A stretch of DNA of 64,000 bases from Mytilus galloprovincialis (Eukaryota; Mollusca; Bivalvia; Mytilida; Mytilidae), in the NCBI RefSeq assembly GCF_965363235.1, contig NC_134844.1:55114872-55178871 (forward strand), in the 5' to 3' direction. The notes under the pieces were generated by a model, which ran no database searches, had not been told where the DNA came from, and saw nothing but the letters and a program-made list of their open reading frames with translations. This document shows positions 1-58,450 of this stretch, one piece after another. Position 1 is the first letter of the stretch; the number at the start of each line of letters is the position of its first letter. The translations under genes and the position numbers were made by a program.

Positions 1-300
1 TTTGGTTTTTGAGTTATAAGCCAAAAACCGCATTTTACACTTATGTTCTATTTTTAGCCATGGCGGCCATCTTGGTAGGTTGACCGGGTCATTGGACACA
101 TTTTTAAAACTAGATACCCCAATGATGATTGTGGCCAAGTTTGGTAAAATTTGGCCCAGTAGTTTCAGAGAAGATTTTTGTAAAAGTTAACGACATCGGA
201 CGACGCCGGACGACGACGGACGCCGACGGACGATGGACGACAAACGCCGGACGCAAAGTGATGGGAAAAGCTCACTTGGCCCTTCGGGCCAGGTGAGCTA
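1..300. repeat. end of a bivalve interspersed repeat with terminal hairpin
   Basis: The stretch contains a run of GACG/CCGGACG-type repeats (about 186-255), followed by a near-perfect palindrome at 269-299: AGCTCACTTGGCCC, a TTC loop, then GGGCCAGGTGAGCT. This hairpin plus GACG-rich tract is a layout I remember as very common in bivalve genomes. No coding potential is seen. The left end lies outside the window. Confidence 0.6.
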
Positions 301-1638
301 AAAATTGAAGTCTTTTTTGTTGTTGTTTAGATCCTAGTTTAAAGTTTACCATCAGTTACAATTACAAAAAACAATATTTAGATAGGGAACACACTGTTTT
401 GAATTAGTACTATACGTAATTTCAAGCTAAATATACATGGATATACAATTTCATTCAACAAATCGATTGATAAAATATGATGATAAATACCGGACATCAT
501 CAATATATCTGAGCGTCAACTTACGAAATTTGGCAAAGCGATTCTTCTTTTGCATAATAATGTTTAATGTGAATAATGATTCATTGGAATATAAAAAAAT
601 GGTAGTTTGGGCTTTAGAATTCAAAGTAAACACATATAGTATAGTACTATCAATCGTCTTTCCTATTCTTAAAGAATGATCTTTATGAAAGGTATTTTTT
701 AACCTCCAGACAGTAAAGAAAATGTTTTATTCATATATGATAATAAACCATTTAACTCTCGCATTATCGTGTTGAATCACGTATGAAAACTACGTAAATC
801 CTTTGCTGATAGGTTAGTTGTATATGCTCTCCTCCATTGCTTACGATTGTGGGTTTGGTCCCACGTTGAAAACCGATGAATTGAACTTGATTTGGATATA
901 TTCACAAATATGCGGTCCTAAGGATCCTCTGACACAAAAAAAACTTCAGAACATTATCTTCCACAATAGAGAAGTTATCATATTCTGAATCTATTCAATT
1001 CTATAAAAGTCGTGAATACCATCAGGAGAATTCAGAAAAAACTCTGTAATCAATACAAATTATCTACGTGACAAAACAGCACTTACATATACAAAAACAT
1101 CACTGGCAATTGAAGGTGCCTTACTTGAGACATGCACTTGAACAGCCCTCATTTTAAAATCTTCATCAGTGTAATATTGTTGTATAATAAAACGTGATTG
1201 AAAAAAGTACAATTAAAATCTACATCGGAAAAGCAATTAACTGATTTTGATAACTGTACAATGTAGGCACCATATGGCGCAATTAAAACATCAACATTAA
1301 AATCAAAACCATTCCAAAGGTTCTGAAATATTGACATCAGTGACTAAACTGATCTAAACTGTGGCTTATATTTCACATGACAATGTCTTTCTATAACTAT
1401 GATTGATAAAATTGATGTTGATCTCCTTCTCCCCCTCCCCCCACACACAAAAAAAGAAACAACCATTGAACAGCAAAAGTATATATAATTCATAGTTACA
1501 ACGTTTATCAAGAAGTATATAAGGCAAACAGAAACATTTTGAAAGGCCACTTTCTGTCGCATTAAGCATTTGGTAACCTCTTTTGATATAATGGTGTTTA
1601 ATTTATTTTATCCTTTTCTATATTTTAAAACATCAAAG
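301..1638. other. non-coding stretch upstream of the first readable FL1 exon
   Basis: AT-rich DNA without a convincing exon. The missing signal-peptide/neck exon of FL1 should lie here or left of the window, but I found no ATG followed by a hydrophobic stretch and a phase-1 donor. The short open frames at 437-679 and 1149-1569 overlap on both strands and look random. Confidence 0.5.
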
Positions 1639-2658
1639 AAATCCCTGTAAGGGAAGTTGCGTTCGGTAAGTCATGCAGACAAAGTTCAACCTATTGGGGA
1701 GAATATGCTTCAAAGGCAGTTGATGGAGATTTGAATACATATATGCACACTAACAAGGACCAATCACCTTATTGGATTGTTGACCTTGGAAAACCATACC
1801 AAATAAAGCAGATAGAAATATTCAACAGAAAGCATGGCGACATAAACACGGGTGAGTTAAGGTTATCTACTTTTCTGTCAGGTGACGTAATATAAATCTA
1901 TTTAAACACTATTTGACGTTATATGATTCGTTATTTCTGTGTGTGTCTTCTTTTTGCAAAACCTTTCGAAATTATAGTTCTTCAATTTATTTCAACTTTA
2001 GTTGGCCTTTTTGACTTTTTTCTTCGGAGCGTCACCCCATGATGATTTGTTTTGTTGACGAAATGCGAATATGACGTACAAATTTTAGGCCTGTTTGTTA
2101 TATGTTTGTTTTTTATTGACATCTGAATTTGTTTTTATGATTAATTTCTGAAATTTGAAATGATTTTTTTGTCTGCTGTTTACGTTCGTATAAACAATAT
2201 TCTCTGACTTCTACGCAGGTGTTAAGCCTAGTAGATAATCATACTTCGAAAAAGTGTACAATTGACTTTTTCTATTCAAAATAAGAGGGACATTTCAAAC
2301 CAACCGTGAGTGTTAAAATTAGAAGATAAGAAATTGAATGCAAACGGATATGCATTGACATGGCAAACAATGAATGACCTATACGAAGAAAAAACATTGA
2401 AATAAACTTTAATGTTAGCATATAAAATATAAGATTAGCTCTTAATTTGTTTCAGGATTACGTCTGCGTGACCTGGATATTATTGTTGGTACTTCCCCTT
2501 ATAACATGCATATGTGTGCCCATTACGCAGGACCAGCTCAACTGGGAGCTCATATTGTGCTTGTATGTCAATATGACGAAAAGGCACGTTATGTGAAGTT
2601 GATGTTACGAAGAAGAGATTACTTACATGTGGCGGAAGTAAAAGTGTATGCACTATAG
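1639..2658 (+). CDS. FL1: F-type lectin (fucolectin-like) gene, two lectin-domain exons, 5' exon not found
   Basis: Exons 1639-1851 (213 nt) and 2456-2658 (203 nt) are joined by a phase-1 GT-AG intron (GTGAGT donor, TTTCAG acceptor). The product is the C-terminal F-type lectin (FTP, F5/8C-like) domain, a secreted fucose-binding fold. Visible landmarks are EVAFGK at the domain start, VDGDLNTYMHT, SPYWIVDLGK, QIEIFNR, LRLRDLDI, and the closing strand HVAEVKVYAL followed by TAG at 2656-2658. The family sugar-site pattern H-X26-R is present, but the following R-X-D-X4-R is replaced by RKHGDINTGLR, without the vicinal cysteines of FL2 and FL3. FL4 has the same loop type. AATAAA lies at 2673-2678. 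The signal-peptide exon is missing from the model, so the gene is 5' partial here; I cannot say whether it is intact. Confidence 0.82.
1852..2455 (+). other. FL1 intron (phase 1)
   Basis: Begins GTGAGT and ends TTTCAG between the two lectin exons. The content is AT-rich and I see no repeat or nested gene in it. Confidence 0.75.
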
Positions 2659-3390
2659 GATAAATCTGGCCAAATAAATCATACCTCAAGCTTTGACTTT
2701 TTTTTATAGTTCAAAAAAGTGTTTGTTTATTTTGGTTTTTAAAATTCAAAACATATTGTTAAAAGAAGTTTTTATTTGTGAAACCTAGATCTATATATTT
2801 CCGGAGACACAGCTACTTCGGTTATATCGTGGTAACATACTTGTTCCTGAGTTGGTCATTGTTCTTCACAACAGACGATACGAAGGACATTCAAACCTCA
2901 TTAGTCGAAATTGATATTGATACGCCTTGACAAAAGAAACAAAAAAACCCAAAACAAGTCATCGAAAACACTAACAAACAACAAAACACTACATAAACTG
3001 TTTCCAAGTCGAAAGCACCTTTTTTTTAAGTTGATGATACGAGGTATATGCCTTGTTTGATAAATCTGGCTGAATAAATTTTACATTTAGCTTTAACATT
3101 TTTTATATATGTTTATTTTGGTCTTAAAATTCAAACAAATATTGTTTCAAGAAGTTTTGACTTGTCAAACTTATATCTATATACTTCAGCAGGCACAAAT
3201 ACTTCGGTTATATCGTGGTAACATACTTGTCCCTGAGTTGGCATTGTTCTTAACAACAGACGATAAGAAGGATATTCAAAACACATAAGTCAAAATGAAA
3301 ACTGACAACGCCTTGACAAAAGAAAAACTAAAAAAAAAGAAAACAACAAGTCAACGAAAACACTACGTAAATAGTTTCCAAGTCTGAACA
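2595..3390 (+). repeat. tandem duplication of the FL1 3' end and downstream sequence (period about 400 bp)
   Basis: The block from about 2595 to 3000 recurs at about 3028-3390. Matching landmarks are AAGTTGATG(T/A)TACGA, TAAATCTGGC (2661 and 3061), GGTTATATCGTGGTAACATA, and a shared purine-rich tail. The second copy keeps only a few codons' worth of the last exon, with an internal deletion, so it is not a gene. Part of each copy (around 2870-3000 and 3240-3480) also resembles the interspersed repeat at 41360-41600. Confidence 0.65.
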
Positions 3391-3499
3391 ACACAAGCCC
3401 CATCATAAACTAAGGTTGATCTCAAGTGTTTCAGAATGGTACGCAGTTTCTACCCACTAGTGATACCCGGCATGTTGTTAATGGTTTGTGCACATTTTC

Positions 3500-5191
3500 T
3501 TATAATGGTCATATAACTCGTGATTTTAATTTTTCTGCGCCAAGTGAAGGCAATACTAAAGAGTAAAACTTGTCATCTCGAAACTTTGAATAGTTCGTCT
3601 CTAGGTTGACTGGTTTCCTGATTTTTACTTTAACTAGAAGTATCAAGAATCAAGAAGATCAAAGAACTATATAAACTTGAAATCTCTAACAACATTGTCA
3701 CATATACACAATAAGAACAATAATGCACTCTATGATCCATTCCTCGTCACGCCACTCGGATTTTGTAAAAAAAATGTCATTTGTGTCTGAGCGAGCAATT
3801 GATGAGACACAGTTTTGTCCAAGAACGTGTTGTCCTTTTTTTCAAAGAGTTCATCGGAAAGGACCAAGATCAACAGGGTGACTATGGATTAGAAATATGG
3901 TAATTTTAATCTTCTTCTGAACGGAAGTAAAACACTTGCCAAAACTTTTGACTGTTCGGAAAGTCATAACAGTCCCCAAGGGTGACTGAGTAATCAACAT
4001 TTTCTCGCTCTTGTATTTGTCCCGACCTGCAGTATAGCTCTTTTTGTATCACGAAAAGTGCGTTGCTGAACACGTACAATCAGTAATCACAGAAAAAAAC
4101 TCATATAGTCCGTTGCCATTATGTACCGTGTATATAGAACGGTCTAAAATCGTCTTTGCTCTTCAAAGTTTTAGGTTTTGCATTCTGTAATTTTAACTCG
4201 TACATCACTGAAAAGCAATGAATTGATGGAATGCTCATTTGGTCCAGTAAAACTGGAACTGTGAATGTTATAGGTGCAATACCCACAAATCATCGTACGT
4301 CACATCCGGTGGCATACGAAAAAGGAAAAAAAAAAGATATTCCTTTAAATTTGACAGTTGTAGCAAATTAATCCTAAATTTCAGTGCACTAAAAACATTC
4401 TGAGTCATAAACATATATCTTGGGTGTTTGAAAGCACCATTATTTTTTATTTGGTGTTTCCTTAGAATATTTTGATACATGGTTACTTAAGCTTGTACAC
4501 AGGAAAAAAGGGGTAAAATTTGATAGGTTAACTTCCAGTGATGGTTATTTTCTTATATGCAATTAACTCTTATTTGAAATTTTGTCTATAGTAGTTGACA
4601 GGATAAAACTTTACTCATGCCAAGTATTTCTTTATTTAAAACAAAGATGAATTCTGCACAATTTTTTGAAAAGTGCATATTTAACAAAGACTAATAGGGA
4701 AAAATCAATAGTGGAATTACACATATAAGTTTAAGCTTGCCTGAGTGAGTTGCAACGTTATGGTAAAACAATTTTAATTTCATCAGCTGTACAATTTTTT
4801 AGTGAGAAATGGATTATTTTCAGGCCTTGTGCATCACTGAAGATAAAATCTCATCTATATCAGTTAGATTAGTACCGTGAATGTTATTACAGAAACAAAC
4901 GTATTAATTGGAAATTTATAAACAAAACATACATATAACTGTGAAGTGTTAATATGGTTATAATTTGTTAACCTTCTTAATATTAGTAATATAAGTAAGA
5001 ATGCATATACATTTAAAGTTGTCTAAGCTGTTTTGCAAAATGTCTTAGAAATTCTAAATAGCATATAAGTTCATGTCAATGAATGAAAATTTAGAAAAAT
5101 ATAATTTGTCTAATGATGAAAACAATACGTAAGTAATTATATAGTTGTTATATAATACTGTTAAAGAAACAGCTATGCTGTTGCAAATTAT
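3500..5191. other. gene-free stretch
   Basis: AT-rich DNA between the FL1 duplication and the TRIM-like relic. The only longer open frame (4268-4480, minus) has no recognisable motif. No repeat structure was noticed. Confidence 0.45.
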
Positions 5192-6845: not shown

Positions 6846-7158
6846 TCTAAAAAAAAGACGTAAATGATGGATAAATACTAGAAATATTGTTTATTCGGCG
6901 ACTTTTTATTTTATTATCAAATATGATAAGAATTTATTACCTTCCGTGTTTAAAGATTTATTATGTAGAAAGTAAGTGATGAATTGTTTCTTCTGCTTTT
7001 GGCAAAATGTCCTTTTTGGTCATATAGCTCTACAACTTTTTCGGTTCTTGTATAAATATTTTGCTTCATGCGTTCCTGATGAAGGAAAATCCAGAAAAGC
7101 GCTGCAGACGCATCAAATTTATAATGTGTTATTATGTTTCTTTTTTTCGTTTACTTTT
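6846..7158. other. short spacer with a repeat tail
   Basis: Contains a bivalve-type repeat tail (CCTGATGAAGG, then CGCTGCAGACGCATCAAATT near 7074-7120) that leads directly into the 41-bp tandem array. A related tail (GACGAAACGCGCTGCCGGCG) occurs near 40037. No gene seen. Confidence 0.45.
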
Positions 7159-7403
7159 GGGTGGTAATTAACCAAGGATCTTATTCCACATCAGCGTTTG
7201 GGTGGTAATTAACCAAGGATCTTATTCCACATCAGCGTTTGGGTGGTAATTAACCAAGGATCTTATTCCACATCAGCGTTTGGGTGGTAATTAACCAAGG
7301 ATCTTATTCCACATCAGCGTTTGGGTGGTAATTAACCAAGGATCTTATTCCACATCAGCGTTTGGGTGGTAATTAACCAAGGATCTTATTCCACATCAGC
7401 GTT
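7159..7403. repeat. tandem array, six copies of a 41-bp unit
   Basis: Units start at 7159, 7200, 7241, 7282, 7323 and 7364. Each begins GGGTGGTAATTAACCAAGG and ends CACATCAGCGTT. I see no substitutions between copies, which implies recent expansion or homogenisation. The array runs directly into TATCGACCCACTG, a string nearly repeated next to the array at 19673-20355. Confidence 0.95.
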
Positions 7404-12180: not shown

Positions 12181-12220
12181 CATTAAATCTTTTACAAAAT
12201 TCATTGATTACAAAAAAAAA

Positions 12221-12480
12221 GAAGATGTGGTATGATTGCTATGTTGAGACAACTCTTCACAAGAGACCAATATGACACAGAAATTAACAACTATAGGTCA
12301 CCGTACGACCTTCAACAACAAGCAAAGCCCATACCCCATACTCAGCTTTAAAAGGCCCCGAACTGACAATGTAAAACAATTCAAACCAGAAAACAAGCGG
12401 CCTTATTTATGCACAAAAAATGAACGAAAAACGAATATGTAACACATAAACAAACGACAACCACTGAATTACAGGATCTT
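12221..12480 (+). repeat. interspersed repeat S1, nested in the Helitron-like element
   Basis: Starts GAAGATGTGGTATGATTGC. It contains ACCGTACGACCTTCAACAAC, AAAGCCCATACCCCATA and AAAAGGCCCCGAA, and ends ACCACTGAATTACAGGATC. The matching full copy on the other strand is 49500-49866. It interrupts the 75-bp repeat area, so it inserted later. Confidence 0.8.
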
Positions 12481-19400: not shown

Positions 19401-19672
19401 TTTAGTTTATTTCAGACATGTTGAAACTGACATATTACACATGAACAAATAAGTGTTGACAATGTTTTTTGTTACAACTATTTGACACACTTAAGATCTT
19501 TGTTGAAATATCCTTAAAGGTAGAGTCTTGACTTTTGGCATGATTTCGAAAAGCGCTATTTTGGCAGTGTTGCACTGAATACGAAAACTGAAAAGAACCT
19601 TTTATCGAAGATGTTTTTTTTTAATTTAACTTCACCAGAAATGCTCAAATAAAAAACAATATGAAAGTCGAA
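16426..19672. other. gene-free stretch
   Basis: Contains an S4 repeat copy near 16895-17100 and a small S6 fragment (TTCTGTTGCCTTTATTTGTT) near 18496. Overlapping minus-strand frames at 17293-18005 have no recognisable product. No exon is supported. Confidence 0.45.
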
Positions 19673-20355
19673 GATTACTTAAGAACGTGAGTAGCAATAT
19701 GATCAAAGTGATTAAAAGAGAATAACTAAATCCACCCTATGTCAAATTTGCCTGAGGGAATTCACCTTTTTCATTATTTACAAAGACTACTTAAGAACGT
19801 GAGTAGCAATTTGATCAAAGGGATTAAAAGAGAATAACTAAATCCACCCAATATCAAATTTGCCTGAGGGATATCACCTTTTTTCATAATTTACAAAGAC
19901 TACTTAAGAACGTGAGTAGCAATTTGATCAAAGGGATTAAAAGAGAATAACTAAATCCACCCAATGTCAAATTTGCCTGAGGGATATCACCTTTTTTCAT
20001 AATTTACAAAGATTACTTAAGAACGTGAGTAGCAATTTGATCAAAGGGATTAAAAGAGAATAACTAAATCCACCCAATGTCAAATTTGCCTGAGGGATTT
20101 CACCTTTTTTCATAATTTAAAAAGATTACTTAAGAACGTGAGTAGCAATATGATCAAAGGGATTAAAAGAGAATAACTAGATCCACCCTATGTCCAATTT
20201 GCATGAGGGATTTCACTTTTTGTCCATGTTGTCTGATTTATAAAGATTACTTAAGAACGTGAGTAGCAATATGATCAAAGGGATTTAAAGAGAATAACTA
20301 AATCCACCCAATGTCAAATTTGCCCGAGGGATTTCACCTTTTTTATAATTTATAA
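19673..20355. repeat. tandem array, six copies of a ~113-bp unit
   Basis: Units start GA(T/C)TACTTAAGAACGTGAGTA at 19673, 19785, 19898, 20011, 20124 and 20245 (periods 112, 113, 113, 113, 121). Each ends with a GAGGGA(A/T)(T/A)TCACCTTTTT-like string. Copies differ by a few substitutions. The array is followed by CAGCGTTATCGACCCAGTG at about 20422-20440, close to the string after the 41-bp array. Confidence 0.93.
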
Positions 20356-20624
20356 AATTAAAATTAAAATAAAACTACAATTTTTTTTTCAGCTGATCAT
20401 CAGAAACTTGCAGTTCATCAGCAGCGTTATCGACCCAGTGCTCTTAAAATAAATGTCCATTGTGTACGTTAAGAGCGCCCGGATCACTTGTTTGGATTGA
20501 CCATCACCAGAAACGTTAAAATACACAATCTATGAAAGCCAAGGACAAATAACTGCTTGCTATACGACCATAATTACCTAACACGAAATGCCAAATCCAC
20601 CTTATGATAATGTTGCCTGAGTTT

Positions 20625-46911: not shown

Positions 46912-47904
46912 ATACGCCCGTCGTCTTTTAGACGGGACGTATTATGGTATACCGTTGTCCGTCCGTCCGTCTGTCCGTCCGTCCGTCGTCCACACTTCGG
47001 ACAATAACTCAAAAACACTTTCACCAATTTCCATGAAACTTAAGTGAATTGTTTATATCTATTGACGTAAGCTCCCTTTCGTTTTTTTTTAATTTCAGAT
47101 TTTAAGTTTTGGATTTATGGGGCTTTATTCATAAAAAAGGGGGGATTTTCAACACTTCGGACAATAACTCAAAAAGGCTTTCACCAATGTCCATGAAACT
47201 TTGGTGAATTGTTTATATCTATTGATGTAAGCTCCCTTTCAATTTTTATAAATTTCAGATTTTAAGTTTTGGATTTATTGGGCTTTATTTATAAAAAAGG
47301 GGGATTTTTAACACTTCGGACAATAACTCAAAAAGGCTTTCACCAATGTCTATGAAACTTTGGTGAATTGTTTATATCTATTGATGTAAGCTCCCTTTCA
47401 ATTTTTATAAATTTCATATTTTAAGTTTTGGATTTATGGGGCTTTATTCATAAAAAAAGGGGGATTTTCAACACTTCGGACAATAACTCAAAAAGGCTTT
47501 CACCAATGTCCATGAAACTTTGGTGAATTGTTTATATTTATTGATGTAAGCTCCCTTTCAATTTTTATAAATTTCAGATTTTACATTTCTGTGTTATGAA
47601 TTTTTATGCTTAAAAAAGGGAGGATTTTCCAATTTTGGGACAATAACTAACACTTTCACAAAATTTTATGCAACTTTGATAAATTGTTTATATCTATTGA
47701 CATAAGCTCCCTTTCCATTTTTATAAATTTTAGAGTTTACGTTTTCTTAAGTAATGAAATTTTATACTTAAAAAAAGGGGGATTTTATGAAACTTTGGTG
47801 AATATATTAATGTAACATCCCTTTTGATTTGTATATATATTTCTAGTTGATCATATAAATTCATTTAAAGCATAAAAGACAAGTTAAAAGAGCAACGGGC
47901 GTAT
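46912..47904. mobile_element. element with terminal inverted repeats and 160-bp internal tandem repeats
   Basis: Ends are ATACGCCCGT (46912-46921) and ACGGGCGTAT (47895-47904). The left end carries a hairpin (CCCGTCGTCTTTTAGACGGG) and a (GTCC)n-like tract near 46958-46990. The right flank has GCGCTAAAGCGC. Inside, ACACTTCGGACAATAACTC recurs at 46992, 47152, 47311 and 47471, with a diverged copy at about 47631 and a truncated one after 47760 (period 159-160 bp). No coding frame. Confidence 0.8.
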
Positions 47905-49053: not shown

Positions 49054-50707
49054 CTAAAACAAAACAAAAATATTAAAAATATTAACCTGGAAATAACTGC
49101 GCAACTTTCACTGCTTAATATAGTAATTTGTTCAGAATTGAGTTATATATTTGACCGGTTTGTATAGAGATATGAATTAACAATGTATATGGACTTCAAG
49201 GACAATGTTAATTTCGGGGAAATTGTTTCTTCCTGAAAACAAATAGTGATTGACTAATAACGTCCCGACTGACTAAGTACTTCCAATGTTGGATAAGATG
49301 TGTTCGTTGAAACAGGTTAAAAAGCTCGACTTGCATTATAATGTATGGCAGTCTATCCTTTTCAAGTCAAGAACATCTTAAAGTCAACTGATATGTGTCG
49401 TATGACTTTTATTATTTTAGACATTCTAATGAAAAATTGTGTCAATAAATTGTTATGTTAGGTTCATCCCTTGTTTGTTAATAACTGTACTTGTACTGTT
49501 ATACCACTGTCCCAGGTTAGGGGGAGGGTTGGGATCCCACTAACATGTTTAACCCTGCCACATTATTTATGTATGTGCCTGTCCCAAGTCAGGAGCCTGT
49601 AATTCAGTGGTTGTCGTTTATTTATGTGTTACAAATTTGTTTTTCGTTAATTTTTTTTTTTTTTTTTTTTTACATAAATAAGGCCGTTAGTTTTCTCGTT
49701 TGAATTGTTTTACATTATTTTCTTATCGGGGCCTTTTATAGCTGACTATTCGGTATGGGCTTTGCTCATTGTTGAAGGCCGTACGGTTACCTATAGTTGT
49801 TAATGTTTGTGTCATTTTGGTCTTTTGTGGATAGTTGTCTCATTGGCAATAATACCACATCTTCTTTTTTATATTATGGATTTTACACTGCATTTTAACG
49901 TTATAGTTTATTTGCCATTTCCGTAAATGATCCTGTGACGAGAAGTCCATTTGTACGAGTTGTTTACCTCTGAAGAGTCACAAATGTGTATGGCTAATAA
50001 AGAGCAAGACGATAGAACTAACATCAGTGTGCTTAATGTAAGTGACCTGTAGCTTTTATAATCATTAAAAAGCTTCAGCTTCAGCTAAACACATTTGATT
50101 TGAATAGTAGTTTTCAAATAAACAGAGGTTAAAACCTAATTATAACACTTTCAACTGGTCATGCTTTGTATAGGTAGCAGCTTAATTTGTCCGGTTTATT
50201 AATAGTAAATATAACAAAAAAAACCCCTCTTTTTTTCTATTAAAAACAACAATAAACAAATACACAAATCACTACAACTCTTGATAATGGATGGCTGCTA
50301 AACGTCTAATTACAAATTAAATGCCTATTCATGACGAAAACATGGCAATGCAATAAGAATATGTATCCTGCTTTATAAAAGACTGACACATACAGCCTGA
50401 TTTTGAACATGCAAGTTCACAAGGTATATTTCGTGTCGAGGCTTCATAAAGCCGACAATAATGTGTGCAATATTTTCATTGCTGAAGTCCATGTGCTTGC
50501 CAATAATTCCTGGCATCCGCTTTATTAAAACATCGGCTTATAGTTGTCTCATTAGCAATCAGACAACGCTTCCTTATTTTCATAAAAACTAATGCAGCTT
50601 CACAAGTGAATGCGAAATATCAAATACATAAAAAGGTAAAATTCATCGGCAATATCTGTATTTCATGTCAGCAGATAGGAAACAAATGTGTTTATACTTT
50701 GACCTAC
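49054..50707 (-). other. FL4 last intron (phase 1)
   Basis: Donor GTAGGT at 50707, acceptor TTTTAG next to 49053. It holds a full S1 repeat. Confidence 0.75.
49500..49866 (-). repeat. full-length interspersed repeat S1
   Basis: On the + strand it runs CCACTGTCCCAGGTTAGGGG, CCCAAGTCAGGAGCCTGTAA, GGCCGTTAGTTTTCTCGTTT, CGGGGCCTTTTATAGCTGAC, GAAGGCCGTACGGTTACCTA and TAGTTGTCTCATTGGCAATA to CCACATCTTC. This is the most complete copy in the window and serves as reference for the others. Confidence 0.85.
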
Positions 50708-54424: not shown

Positions 54425-54637
54425 GTACGGTTACACCACTGTCCCAGGTTAGGGGAGGGTTGGGATCCCTTTAACATGTTCAACCCACCACATTCTGTAT
54501 GTATGTGCCTGATCCAAATCAGGAGGCTGTTTTTCAGTGGTTGTCGTTTGTTGATGTGTACCATATTCGTGTTTCGTTTAATTTCATTTTGTTCATTAAT
54601 TTGGCCGTTAGTTTACACGTTTCGCTTGTTTTACATT
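54425..54637 (-). repeat. S1 repeat, left half, split by a transposon insertion
   Basis: CCACTGTCCCAGGTTAGGGG to GGCCGTTAGTTTACACG and TTGTTTTACATT. The remaining half (GGTGCCTTTTGTAGCTGACT to GTTGTCTCATTGACAATCA) continues at 58300-58450. The two halves join to the same family layout as 49500-49866. Confidence 0.85.
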
Positions 54638-57600
54638 TAGTGGGAGATATTATGGACATAATTTTGCAAATCGTGATACAAGCATGAAATTTGGTATAAA
54701 GGTTGACTACATGATACTTAAAAGAAATCCGCTGCTGACCAGAAAATTTTTTTTTTTCAAGATGGCCACCACACATTTCGGAAATGGCGTCATTACAAAT
54801 TGACAATAATTCGTTAATCCTTTAAAAGGTGTGTTATATGTAAAATACAATGTTAGATTTGATAAAAAGTAAATGACAGTTGCTAAATTACGACTAGACA
54901 ATACATTAATGAAACTAAAGGTGACTTCCGGTTTCAAAATGCCGGCAAAAAAGTCAAAAATTTTTATTTTTATACTTTCAAGCAATTTCACAAGGGATGT
55001 TAATTCTTGAAAGATGTGTTATAGGTATAATCCAATGTAAGTTATGATAAAACGTTAAAAAAAAATTTCCTAAGTACGACAAAACAACACATAATGAAGA
55101 AAAATAGTGACTTCCGGTTCCAAAATGGAGGCAAATACGTAAAAAATATTTTCATAATTTCCATCAACTTAATAAGTGTTAACACTCTTTGTTAAGTTTA
55201 AATGCCTAGTTTGGTTAGAAAGACAGGTTGCTTATTTTATAATTATCTGATAGTTGCCTATACAACAACCCGTACAAGGAAGGCCAGAACGGTAGCATCT
55301 ACAGTTACCAACACAGCTGGATTTTCGCCTCCGCTTTTCAAAATTTTCTGACACGAGGATGCAACGGCAGTCAAAGAAGTCCATTTTGGTTTCCAACTGT
55401 CATTGATTCTTTTTTTCATCGAACCCCAGTGTTCATGACTTGGAACACGTACCTGTCGAATACATGAATCAGGCTGAGCCCAAACAACTCCTCCTTGATA
55501 TACTTCTCTTTTGATGTGCTCTGGAAAAAACCTCTTGTAGGCGGAATTGTATCACAATGCCGCTGCTTCCTGGCAAACAATTCACATCGTGCCTCGCTTC
55601 ATACTTAAGCCTGAAAAAAACGTCCTTAACATCTGGAAAACCTTCCATTGTTAGACAAGCTGACCTTTTGCCTTTCTCATGACAATTCGACAAAGTGCCA
55701 CATCAACTTAATGCATTGACGAAAGGAAGAGCAGCTACACAAGGACCAAACACATTTGATATGTCACGTGCAGGAAGCCATCACAAGTCGTTATTCCTTC
55801 CATAACCTATCCACAGTTTGTTCTACCTTATTATGCGATTGCTGCAATTCTTGATACTATTTCATCTGTGTCAGTACTACCTAAAATTACATTTTACAAC
55901 ACTTTTCATAATCATGCCGAACATGGACAAACATTCGTGTATCTGCTTCTTCATGATTACAAGGGGATAGATAGGAAGTATCTTTATTGAAATTGCAAAG
56001 AATATGTTCACCATGAGTAACATACACATTTGTATTAGTCTCTTAAGAAGCAATTTTGTCACCAAGAAACTTGAACAATTTCGTTGGGTTGTCATCTTCA
56101 CAGAGAAAACTACCCGACACCCTTGGTGTTCTACCAGAACCAACACCTTTCCATCTGGCACAAGAACATTGCCTTTGTCTTGTCACAGCCTTTAAATTAT
56201 TCATTTAGTAAACATCAAATACAATGTCTACTTTTGAATACTTATCGATGCAAGATTTTATATAAGGCAGTATGACATCATTAGCATAATCATCAAAATT
56301 TTTGCCCAACTTTGTGACCTGGAATTAACCATTGCTGCCCCACCAACGATAAATGCGTCCGAATTTGGATCAGCAAATCGCAGAATGTTTCAAGTAAACC
56401 CGTTTGCAGCGATTTAATACCACTATTTCAAGTGACATCCTGAGATAAAGACGGAGGAGCAGTTTGGTTTCTATGGATAAAGAAATATTCCGATTAAAAC
56501 TGTCTACTGTGACAAGAAATGAAAAGTATAGAAAAGATATCGCAATCACTTTTGAGGTTCTCTAGCTTTGTTTTTGACAAAGACGTTTCCAGTTTCATTT
56601 TGCGGCCAAAATAGGAAGTTGTTCTTTTAATTTTGCATTTAGTTATAAAAAGCAGGCTCTCCTTCGTTTTGCATTTGCTTCAAAAGATCTTCGTATTGTT
56701 TGGACCGATATCTTGGAGTTTATTTACATATCTTACCTGTTTCCGAATCAACAATTTCCTAAATGGAGTATTTTAATAACAAATCTGACGACTATTCTAG
56801 GAATGAATTTCCAAATTCGTTCATCACTTTGCAAAGCCTTTAAAGCTGTTTAAAGAAATCTTTTTGTGTTTTCGTAGAGTCTTCATTATGTCGTTCGTCT
56901 GTTTTAGAATGACCCAAACCACTAGATCTTTCAAATTAATCTTCTAGTATACTGACTCCTGGTCCAGCTACCATCAATTTGTCTAAAAGGGATCTTTGGT
57001 TAATCCTATGGCACCAACATTGCCCTTCACAACTGCATTATTCTGTTTTTGTGCCTGATCAATTCTGTTACAAGAAAGAAATTTGCTGGTCTTATGTACA
57101 GTGAAATCATCATTTTCAAATTCCATTGCCACCTGTGGGTGATGTTCGGGAAGGGAAGTCATATCTCGGAGATGAGTCGGTAACGATCGAGCATAATTTA
57201 CACGATCAAGACCTAAAACAATACGCTATCATGCTTTATATGGACTGTTTGAAAAGTACGAAATCTCACTCATGAAAGGAGCATAATACCAAAATCAAAA
57301 GAAGTTCTTAATTTATAATTGAACGGCAGGAATTTAACTGTGGTCGAGATGACTCTATTTCCTTACACTAGTCTTTTAAATCATTGAACGTCACAGAGTC
57401 ATGACATAATTATATATTCTGAGTTAAGCTTTCATAATCTGAAATTAACAATTTTTAAGCAAAATACATGCAGTTGCCTGATGCGCCTGTCTAGTCCTAG
57501 GTACATTTTAACATACATAAAAAGAATCTGCCGTTCTTGGTGTTGCAAAGTTGGCTTCAGTAAGACAACATGTCTATCCCCTATCACGCAATATATCACC

Positions 57601-58299
57601 CAGAGTTTTATAACAAGTCATTTCAATGTGAAATCTACCAAACATGACGATACACTTATATTTTCCTTACAAATCAGGCCATTCCCACTGAATTTGCTTA
57701 GGCATTTCCAAGTGGCTGATCTGCAGTTACAATTGATGTTTCTACGGGATTAACCACATTTTCGCCTTAACCATTTAATACCTGAGAATTACCTGGTAGT
57801 GCATACAAATCGCTCTTGATGTCTATAAATAGTTTGCACATGCGCAAAAGTGTGAAACACGTGTGTATCATAACCTTGAAAAATGTTATTAAACCAATTC
57901 ATAATATCATTAGAAATCCAAAAACACTAAATATATAGTAAAATAGTTCAAATGTTTTTTAAATAATTTTGTTACATTTTCGCGCATGCGCAAATACTGG
58001 ATATGTCAAATATTCATTTTTAATAAATATGTGATGTAAGGAAGGTAGCCACCAAACCTGGTAATTGGTTTTTACTAAAAGAAGTTCAAAGAAAAGTTTT
58101 CCAGAAAAATCAGTATTTTAAAACTAAAGAAAACAGCCATTTTAGAAAATGGCCGTGGCCATCTTGAAAAAAATATTTTGTTTAATGGCCAGCAGTTATT
58201 TCTTACAAAGTATATAATAATGATGCTTTGTGGTAATTTTCATGCTTGTATCATCATTTGCACAATTCCCTCGATTTTGCTTGCTAATATCTTCCACTA
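54638..58299 (-). mobile_element. DNA transposon (3662 bp) with long terminal inverted repeats, inserted in an S1 repeat
   Basis: The left end TAGTGGGAGATATTATGG and the right end, read in reverse complement (TAGTGGAAGATATTAGC), are inverted repeats. The match goes on inward for about 150 bp with gaps, through GTGATACAAGCATGAAATTT versus ATGATACAAGCATGAAAATT and then TTTTTTCAAGATGGCCAC on both sides. CATT stands at 54634-54637 and again at 58300-58303, a 4-bp target duplication. The S1 repeat resumes exactly where it was cut. The interior carries one decayed minus-strand ORF (55255-57755). The superfamily cannot be assigned by eye. Confidence 0.82.
55255..57755 (-). pseudogene. decayed transposon ORF: HEEADTRM / DTD / GCDT-like protein with C-terminal CXC cluster
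   Basis: Minus-strand pieces in order, over several frames: IVTADQPL; KQIQWEWPD; YKCIVMFGRFHIEM; LTEANFATPRTADSF; PRTRQAHQATACIL; NYARSLPTHLRDMTSLPEHH; FTVHKTSKF; RIDQAQKQNNAVVKGN; VDIVFDVY; CNHEEADTRMFVHVRHDYEK; GSTDTDEIVSRIAAIA; AALPFVNALS then CGTLSNCHEKGKRSACLTME; GGVVWAQPDSCIRQ; NDSWKPKWTSLTAVASSCQK; CVGNCRCYRSGLPCTGCC. I recognise this order from uncharacterised proteins repeated in cnidarian and mollusc genomes. The spaced acidic residues (EEAD, DTD) look like a PIN/FEN1-type nuclease core, and the last part like a tesmin/TSO1 CXC zinc domain; both are inferences. There are many stops and frameshifts, so the ORF is dead. The N-terminus is missing or unreadable. Confidence 0.75.
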
Positions 58300-58450
58300 C
58301 ATTGAACATTTCGGTGCCTTTTGTAGCTGACTTTGTGGTATGGGCTTTACGCATTTTTGAAGACCGTATTGTGACCTATGGCGAGCTGTAGTGGTTAAAT
58401 TAGTTGTTCTCTTGTGAATAGTTGTCTCATTGACAATCATACAACATCTT
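58300..58450 (-). repeat. S1 repeat, right half, split by a transposon insertion
   Basis: CATTGAACATTTCGGTGCCT, TATGGGCTTTACGCA, GAAGACCGTATTGTGACCTA, TAGTTGTCTCATTGACAATC. Continues the half at 54425-54637. Confidence 0.85.

Follow-up and report, generated by a model that had tools for sequence, protein, structure and literature searches.

What kind of mobile element lies at positions 54638-58299 of a 64,000-nt stretch of the genome of the bivalve Mytilus galloprovincialis, and which protein moves it? The stretch (hereafter the window; C7:55114872-55178871, contig NC_134844.1, assembly GCF_965363235.1) had been read as carrying a DNA transposon whose nuclease-type open reading frame (ORF) fits no known superfamily; all genome searches described here were made in the same assembly (1.385 Gb). 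The element is a DNA transposon. We consider it probable that this non-autonomous copy belongs to an AcademX-like family and that a full-length relative acts on it in trans.

The ends of the element establish its nature, and they lie exactly where the original prediction had placed them, with TAGTGG as the first bases at 54638 and CCACTA as the last at 58299. The claimed inverted ends are real and extend over ~130-150 bp at 70-71% identity: a comparison within the window aligns left and right ends as inverted repeats at 71.4% over 133 bp (E 1.9e-11), and in a second alignment the identity is 70% over 132 bp, with 16 of the 18 outermost bases also matching. The CATT duplication is likewise present on both sides. 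The prediction also held that the element cuts an interspersed repeat, S1, in two, with the repeat resuming exactly at the element ends. Several diverged S1 copies occur in the window, at 49492-49874, 12474-12218, 39915-39808 and 15088-14998. The joined flanks of the element align through the first of these at 77% (E 6e-81) and through the second at 73% (E 2e-37), both within the window; since these through-running copies have small gaps around the junction, the interruption is demonstrated, but the exact duplicated bases are left unfixed.

To place this copy within its family, we searched the genome with the left 150 bp. All 40 candidates scored, of 847 found at first look, match this end: the window copy itself and 39 others at 92-93%, which puts at least 40 left ends in the genome. 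Apart from the window, the 20 best-matching places were fetched, a selection biased toward copies close to the window copy, and with the window copy and two relatives of 5.8 kb these make up the 23 copies examined. Both ends are present in 18 of the 20 fetched copies (L010 and L016 are without the right end), and remnants of the ORF lie inside all 20. The fetched copies with these terminal inverted repeats (TIRs) do hold the ORF, and the claim that it belongs to the transposon is borne out by them together with the two 5.8-kb relatives, which have both ends and the gene. Both ends could be located in 21 copies (window, 18 fetched and the two 5.8-kb relatives). Their target-site duplications (TSDs) measure 3 bp in 16 and 4 bp in two, so that 3 bp is the rule, broken by the CATT of the window copy and by one other; the remaining three (L025, L009 and L015) have none, and in L009 and L015 the right tip differs from CCACTA. 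When the flanks were permuted in 2000 shuffles, copies with a duplication of at least 3 bp numbered 2.06 on average and never more than 8, compared with the observed 18 of 21, and a chance origin of the duplications was rejected on this basis. The ends differ between family members in one further respect: a 185-bp subterminal unit is present twice in the 3.6-kb family and singly in the 5.8-kb relatives, where both window units align to one stretch each (positions 5266-5446 of L059, on C4, and 1440-1622 of L060, on C12). This duplicated end sequence may alter transposase binding.

The gene between these ends is badly damaged. The predicted relic motifs were all found on the minus strand (HEEADTRM, a TDTD motif, GTLSNCHEKGK, WKPKWTSL and a cysteine cluster), scattered across three frames with many stops. 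GTLSNCHEKGK sits at the position of SGCDTVSAFRGKGKKSA in the C4 relative and is thus a decayed GCDT motif. To date the damage relative to the spread of the family, lesions were compared with those of 12 sister copies of 3.4-3.76 kb, drawn from the 18 fetched copies with both ends; the sisters are 92-99% identical among themselves (mean 94.8%). All 12 have the 2.3-kb deletion that removes the N-terminal part from the gene of the window copy. Past residue 387 of the C4 protein, the window copy carries 18 frameshifting indels, of which 14 are common to at least 10 sisters and the other four are present in 0, 0, 1 and 3; read in the C4 frame it contains 22 stops, 12 common to at least seven sisters and 10 found in none or one. 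Three positions proposed below as catalytic are also changed in the window relic, namely the candidate DDE Glu (E622K) and the first FEN-like Asp (D857G), both altered in all 12 sisters, and the Asp of the GCD motif (D1074G), altered in 8 of the 12. Because the deletion, most of the frameshifts and two of the catalytic changes are common to the sisters, the gene was, on this comparison, dead before the family spread and the family is non-autonomous; the stops that are private or in one sister indicate that the window copy decayed further after insertion. To judge from these lesions, then, the 3.6-kb family multiplied carrying a dead gene, and the proteins for its spread were presumably supplied in trans. 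In this respect the original prediction was not borne out: the copy is a non-autonomous derivative whose gene has lost the first candidate DDE Asp along with the deleted N-terminal part, and this loss, combined with the change of the candidate Glu to Lys, explains why the relic resembled a nuclease alone.

What could supply the missing protein? When the relic was read through approximately and the genome searched with the result (113 of 2,003 candidates scored), 226 matches came back; among the matches listed, most are broken by stops and a few diverged ones are open. The C4 element (L059; within C4:41788300-41796500) is 5,821 bp long, with tips TAGTGG/CCACTA, a TAA TSD and a main ORF open over 1,256 residues. 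A separate ORF of 203 residues lies upstream, and since the join between the two could be an intron or a frameshift, this copy may be less than wholly intact. The C12 element (L060; 5,839 bp) has the same tips and an AAA TSD and is 95% identical to the C4 element, with a broken frame. The 5.8-kb elements match the left end of the window copy at 78-87% over ~200 bp, and the C4 element is 79% identical to the window copy over the aligned parts. Comparison of C4 with C12 yields a ratio of nonsynonymous to synonymous substitution rates (dN/dS) of 0.17 over 778 codons and 0.11 over the 294 codons of the FEN-like part, low values which indicate that the FEN-like domain was selected at least in the C4/C12 lineage; C4 against L062 gives 0.25 for a stretch that a frameshift terminates, and dS is saturated when C4 is set against L061.

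L061, a frame of 735 residues on C1, is 62% identical to L059. A genome search with it (61 of 4,386 candidates scored) returned 85 matches, at least nine of them stop-free from residue 1-3 to 734-735 at identities of 48-100%; the nine lie on C1, C4, C7, C8, C10, C11, C12 and C13 (two). Open frames of 788-1,020 residues, 48-50% identical to L061, were seen at C13:51150616, C10:21991649, C7:91170676, C8:68197041, C13:42158033, C11:21757541 and C12:79054736, and their sequences suggest at least one additional family whose genes are open. Beyond this genome, a scan of prokaryote contigs found one relative, L065, on a 6.5-kb contig binned as Planctomycetota (Dive96_bin10.66), where its presence is likely eukaryotic contamination. 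Its frame is open for 1,443 codons (1-4329) and runs off the 5' edge of the contig. L065 is 33-34% identical to the others over the C-terminal core; upstream it is 24% identical to L059 and 27% to L061. Four scans of viral contigs found no relative of the transposon protein.

The C-terminal region of these proteins is likely a FEN1/XPG-like flap nuclease, a candidate assignment that draws on residue order and weak profile matches. In L059 numbering it keeps D857, D900, E989/E990/D992, D1016/D1018 and D1074, an order that matches D27, D80, E152/E154, D173/D175 and D236 of Pyrococcus FEN1 in a correspondence drawn by hand. The seven acidic positions (D, D, E-E-x-D, D-x-D, D) occur in FEN1 order and with similar spacing in L059, L061 and L065, and they are kept in L065 despite its 34% identity. 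The distance from the second Asp to the Glu cluster is 89-90 residues in L059, compared with 72 in Pyrococcus FEN1. The likeness to FEN1, XPG and EXO1 continues through the GCD motif into a glycine-rich turn that HMMER aligned to EXO1; the difference is that here the region is fused within a transposon protein of more than 1,250 residues. A three-sequence C-terminal profile run against 177,635 PDB sequences gave four matches up to E 10, all to Exonuclease 1 (E 0.35), and a core profile gave five, four of them to Exonuclease 1 (E 0.14); the reversed-profile control matched nothing in the PDB. In NCBIfam the best match of L061 is the flap endonuclease Xni (E 0.0075 and 0.0034, far below the family cut-off), and two reversed control sequences matched nothing there. 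Each match is weak alone, but two libraries point to flap nucleases around the same GCD motif, which makes the link likely, though unproven. We judged further matches to be due to chance: PF18276 on L065 (E 0.011, a better value than that of EXO1), flg_new in NCBIfam and those in PHROGs. The cysteine-rich CXC tail has sub-threshold Pfam TCR/CXC matches in L059 (E 0.018) and L065 (E 0.043), with none in L061, and a literature search for HEEADTR found no paper.

Upstream of the nuclease-like region, an alignment of L059 with L065 at 24% identity shows three kept acidic residues, D227/D341 (in DNID), D400/D552 and E622/E799. D227, D400 and E622 would form a candidate DDE triad in which a long insertion precedes the Glu. 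The Glu of GGLHIEM had been considered as the third residue and was dropped, L065 having Thr at that position; E622/E799 was chosen instead. Pfam places a sub-threshold DUF6589 on the upstream part of L065 and L061 (E 0.003-0.004) and none on that of L059. The PDB matches of the DDE profile, to a designed protein (E 0.0015, in many weak pieces), a betaine-binding protein and ferritin, were judged to be chance.

These features point to a described lineage, so that the claim of no known superfamily is probably wrong. The AcademX and AcademH lineages of the Academ superfamily were reportedly distinguished by Kojima in 2020. According to PMC10045372, AcademX is a DDD/E transposon lineage with TSDs of 3 or 4 bp and an encoded nuclease, and AcademH has TSDs of 9 or 10 bp and a helicase. 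The family described here shares the 3-4 bp duplications of AcademX and probably also the encoding of a nuclease with the transposase; the window copy differs in being non-autonomous, with the N-terminal part gone. AcademH was rejected because of its duplication length and because Pfam gave no helicase match in L059, L061 or L065. Academ elements have been amplified in bivalves, with a mean length of 5,565 bp among 100 curated elements (PMC10294476); the 5,821 and 5,839 bp found here are close to this, a weak criterion. On published description, the family is thus probably AcademX-like and probably new. Other systems offer partial parallels. KolobokE and KolobokP, as described in PMC9587614, are DDD/E transposons with an accessory nuclease of lambda-exonuclease-like or His-Me finger type; an extra nuclease is common to them and the family here, but the nuclease types differ. 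The Kyakuja-Dileera-Zisupton (KDZ) group was absent from the results of the general Pfam scan, in which no KDZ model was searched by name. Kolobok elements target TTAA. Internally deleted non-autonomous derivatives are typified by miniature inverted-repeat transposable elements (MITEs) and Ds; the window family resembles them in its kept ends, dead gene and presumed amplification in trans, and differs in being long (~3.6 kb) and in still carrying much of the dead gene.

We propose that a full-length relative supplies one large protein in trans. Its DDE/RNase H-type core (candidate residues D227, D400 and E622 of the L059 ORF) would cut the TAGTGG..CCACTA ends and join them to a staggered target, giving the 3-4 bp duplications. 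The FEN1/XPG-like region (candidates D857, D900, E989/E990/D992, D1016/D1018 and D1074) may trim or cut branched DNA, either where the element ends or in the gap left at the donor, and the CXC cysteine tail would bind DNA. The window copy, unable to make a working protein itself, would retain the ends recognized by these proteins.

Several results weigh against this proposal. The DDE residues depend on the L059/L065 alignment, and the upstream-part profile matched no transposase among PDB sequences. For the nuclease, no E-value linking the region to FEN falls below 0.003, and the EXO1 matches are to one protein in four constructs. Pfam scans of L059, L061 and L065 gave no XPG match, NCBIfam gave nothing for L059 or L065, the PHROGs scan named no nuclease, and L059 and L061, each run as a single sequence against the PDB, matched unrelated chains only. 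Alignment by hhalign to five archaeal FEN1 proteins, in which the DTD and GCD motifs are aligned, has P 0.12, and AlphaFold run without an alignment on the C-terminal part of L065 produced an unusable model (mean pLDDT 34). The PIN/FEN1 reading of the original prediction accordingly stands in part: flap nucleases come top in the PDB and also in NCBIfam, there for L061 of the three relatives, and the acidic order is FEN1-like, but Pfam and PHROGs name no nuclease and the fold is unproven. As for placement, Academ was compared by published description, so AcademX membership stays probable. AcademX nucleases are of XPG type; a literature search for Academ and XPG together found no paper. Finally, the 10 of 22 window stops that are private or held by one sister represent some post-insertion decay and tell against mobilization in trans.

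Some of these points would suit a transposon of DDE type, fused to a FEN1-like nuclease, that belongs to a superfamily other than Academ, one unnamed in print. The comparison with Academ by description leaves room for it, as does the absence of any Pfam model covering the protein apart from the sub-threshold DUF6589 match; we regard it as unlikely, given how well the AcademX traits fit (3-4 bp duplications, a likely nuclease, the length of bivalve Academ elements). A fuller version, which we hold about as unlikely, would make this superfamily abundant in the genome, with the fused DDE-type core and FEN1-like nuclease both acting in transposition, the nuclease processing end flaps or hairpins in place of host repair, and long non-autonomous families persisting by borrowing the protein. 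Nearer to the bolder suggestion of the original prediction, the FEN1/PIN-like domain might itself be the transposase, with no DDE core. The nuclease-like region is indeed the best conserved (33-34% to L065 vs 24-27% upstream), and the comparison of C4 with C12 shows it to be under purifying selection; yet the upstream half is also retained, with D, D and E in the same order in L059 and L065, and DDE transposases usually go with TIRs and short duplications, which leaves this reading very improbable.

The remaining alternatives concern the history of the copy and are scarcely credible. The window copy could have been autonomous once and have decayed where it lies, as its wealth of stops and frameshifts might suggest; few or no sisters have four of its 18 frameshifts and 10 of its 22 stops. 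Against this, most sisters also carry the 2.3-kb deletion, the other 14 frameshifts and the other 12 stops, and decay solely after insertion was rejected on these shared lesions. Capture of the ORF, once, by unrelated inverted ends fares no better: the ends are established for the 3.6-kb family and L059/L060 and not for diverged relatives such as L061, but the 3.6-kb and 5.8-kb elements, two diverged sub-lineages, enclose this one gene between identical tips, and the link between ends and ORF in all 20 fetched copies and both 5.8-kb relatives led us to reject capture. The reading we prefer is therefore still the non-autonomous, AcademX-like one, and the features on which it draws are collected in Table 1.

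Table 1. Features of the element and of its target repeat in the window (window positions)
Feature	Position	Strand	Basis
Target-site duplication CATT, left	54634..54637		Window letters; 3-4 bp duplications in 18/21 copies
Left terminal inverted repeat, tip TAGTGG	54638..54788	+	End alignment; left-end genome matches
Subterminal direct duplication, two units ~185 bp apart (~54813-55003, 54999-55182)	54813..55182	+	Self-alignment
Remnant of C-terminal CXC cysteine cluster	55255..55360	-	Translation
Dead ORF remnant, ~ residues 392-1256 of L059 protein	55255..57755	-	Translation; alignment to L059
Site where 2.3 kb present in the 5.8-kb relatives is deleted (gene's N-terminal part)	57751..57941		Window element 3113-3303 vs L059 2609-146
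Right terminal inverted repeat, tip CCACTA	58136..58299	-	End alignment
Target-site duplication CATT, right	58300..58303		Window letters; duplication count
Uninterrupted copy of target repeat	49492..49874	+	Joined element flanks align through
Second uninterrupted copy of target repeat	12218..12474	-	Joined element flanks align through

Elsewhere in the window there are three tandem arrays. Six 41-bp units at 7156-7403 match one another at 100%, so that this array was made or homogenized recently; the others consist of 113-bp units at 19671-20360 (6.1 copies) and 160-bp units at 46992-47745 (4.7 copies).

As the type is probably AcademX, the surprise in this transposon is moderate. The large proteins in question lie under every Pfam cut-off and, according to the original prediction, cnidarians and molluscs have many of them. 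They are probably encoded by transposons and are not host genes. Natural copies with and without the gene provide material for asking why a cut-and-paste transposon bears a domain resembling a flap nuclease.

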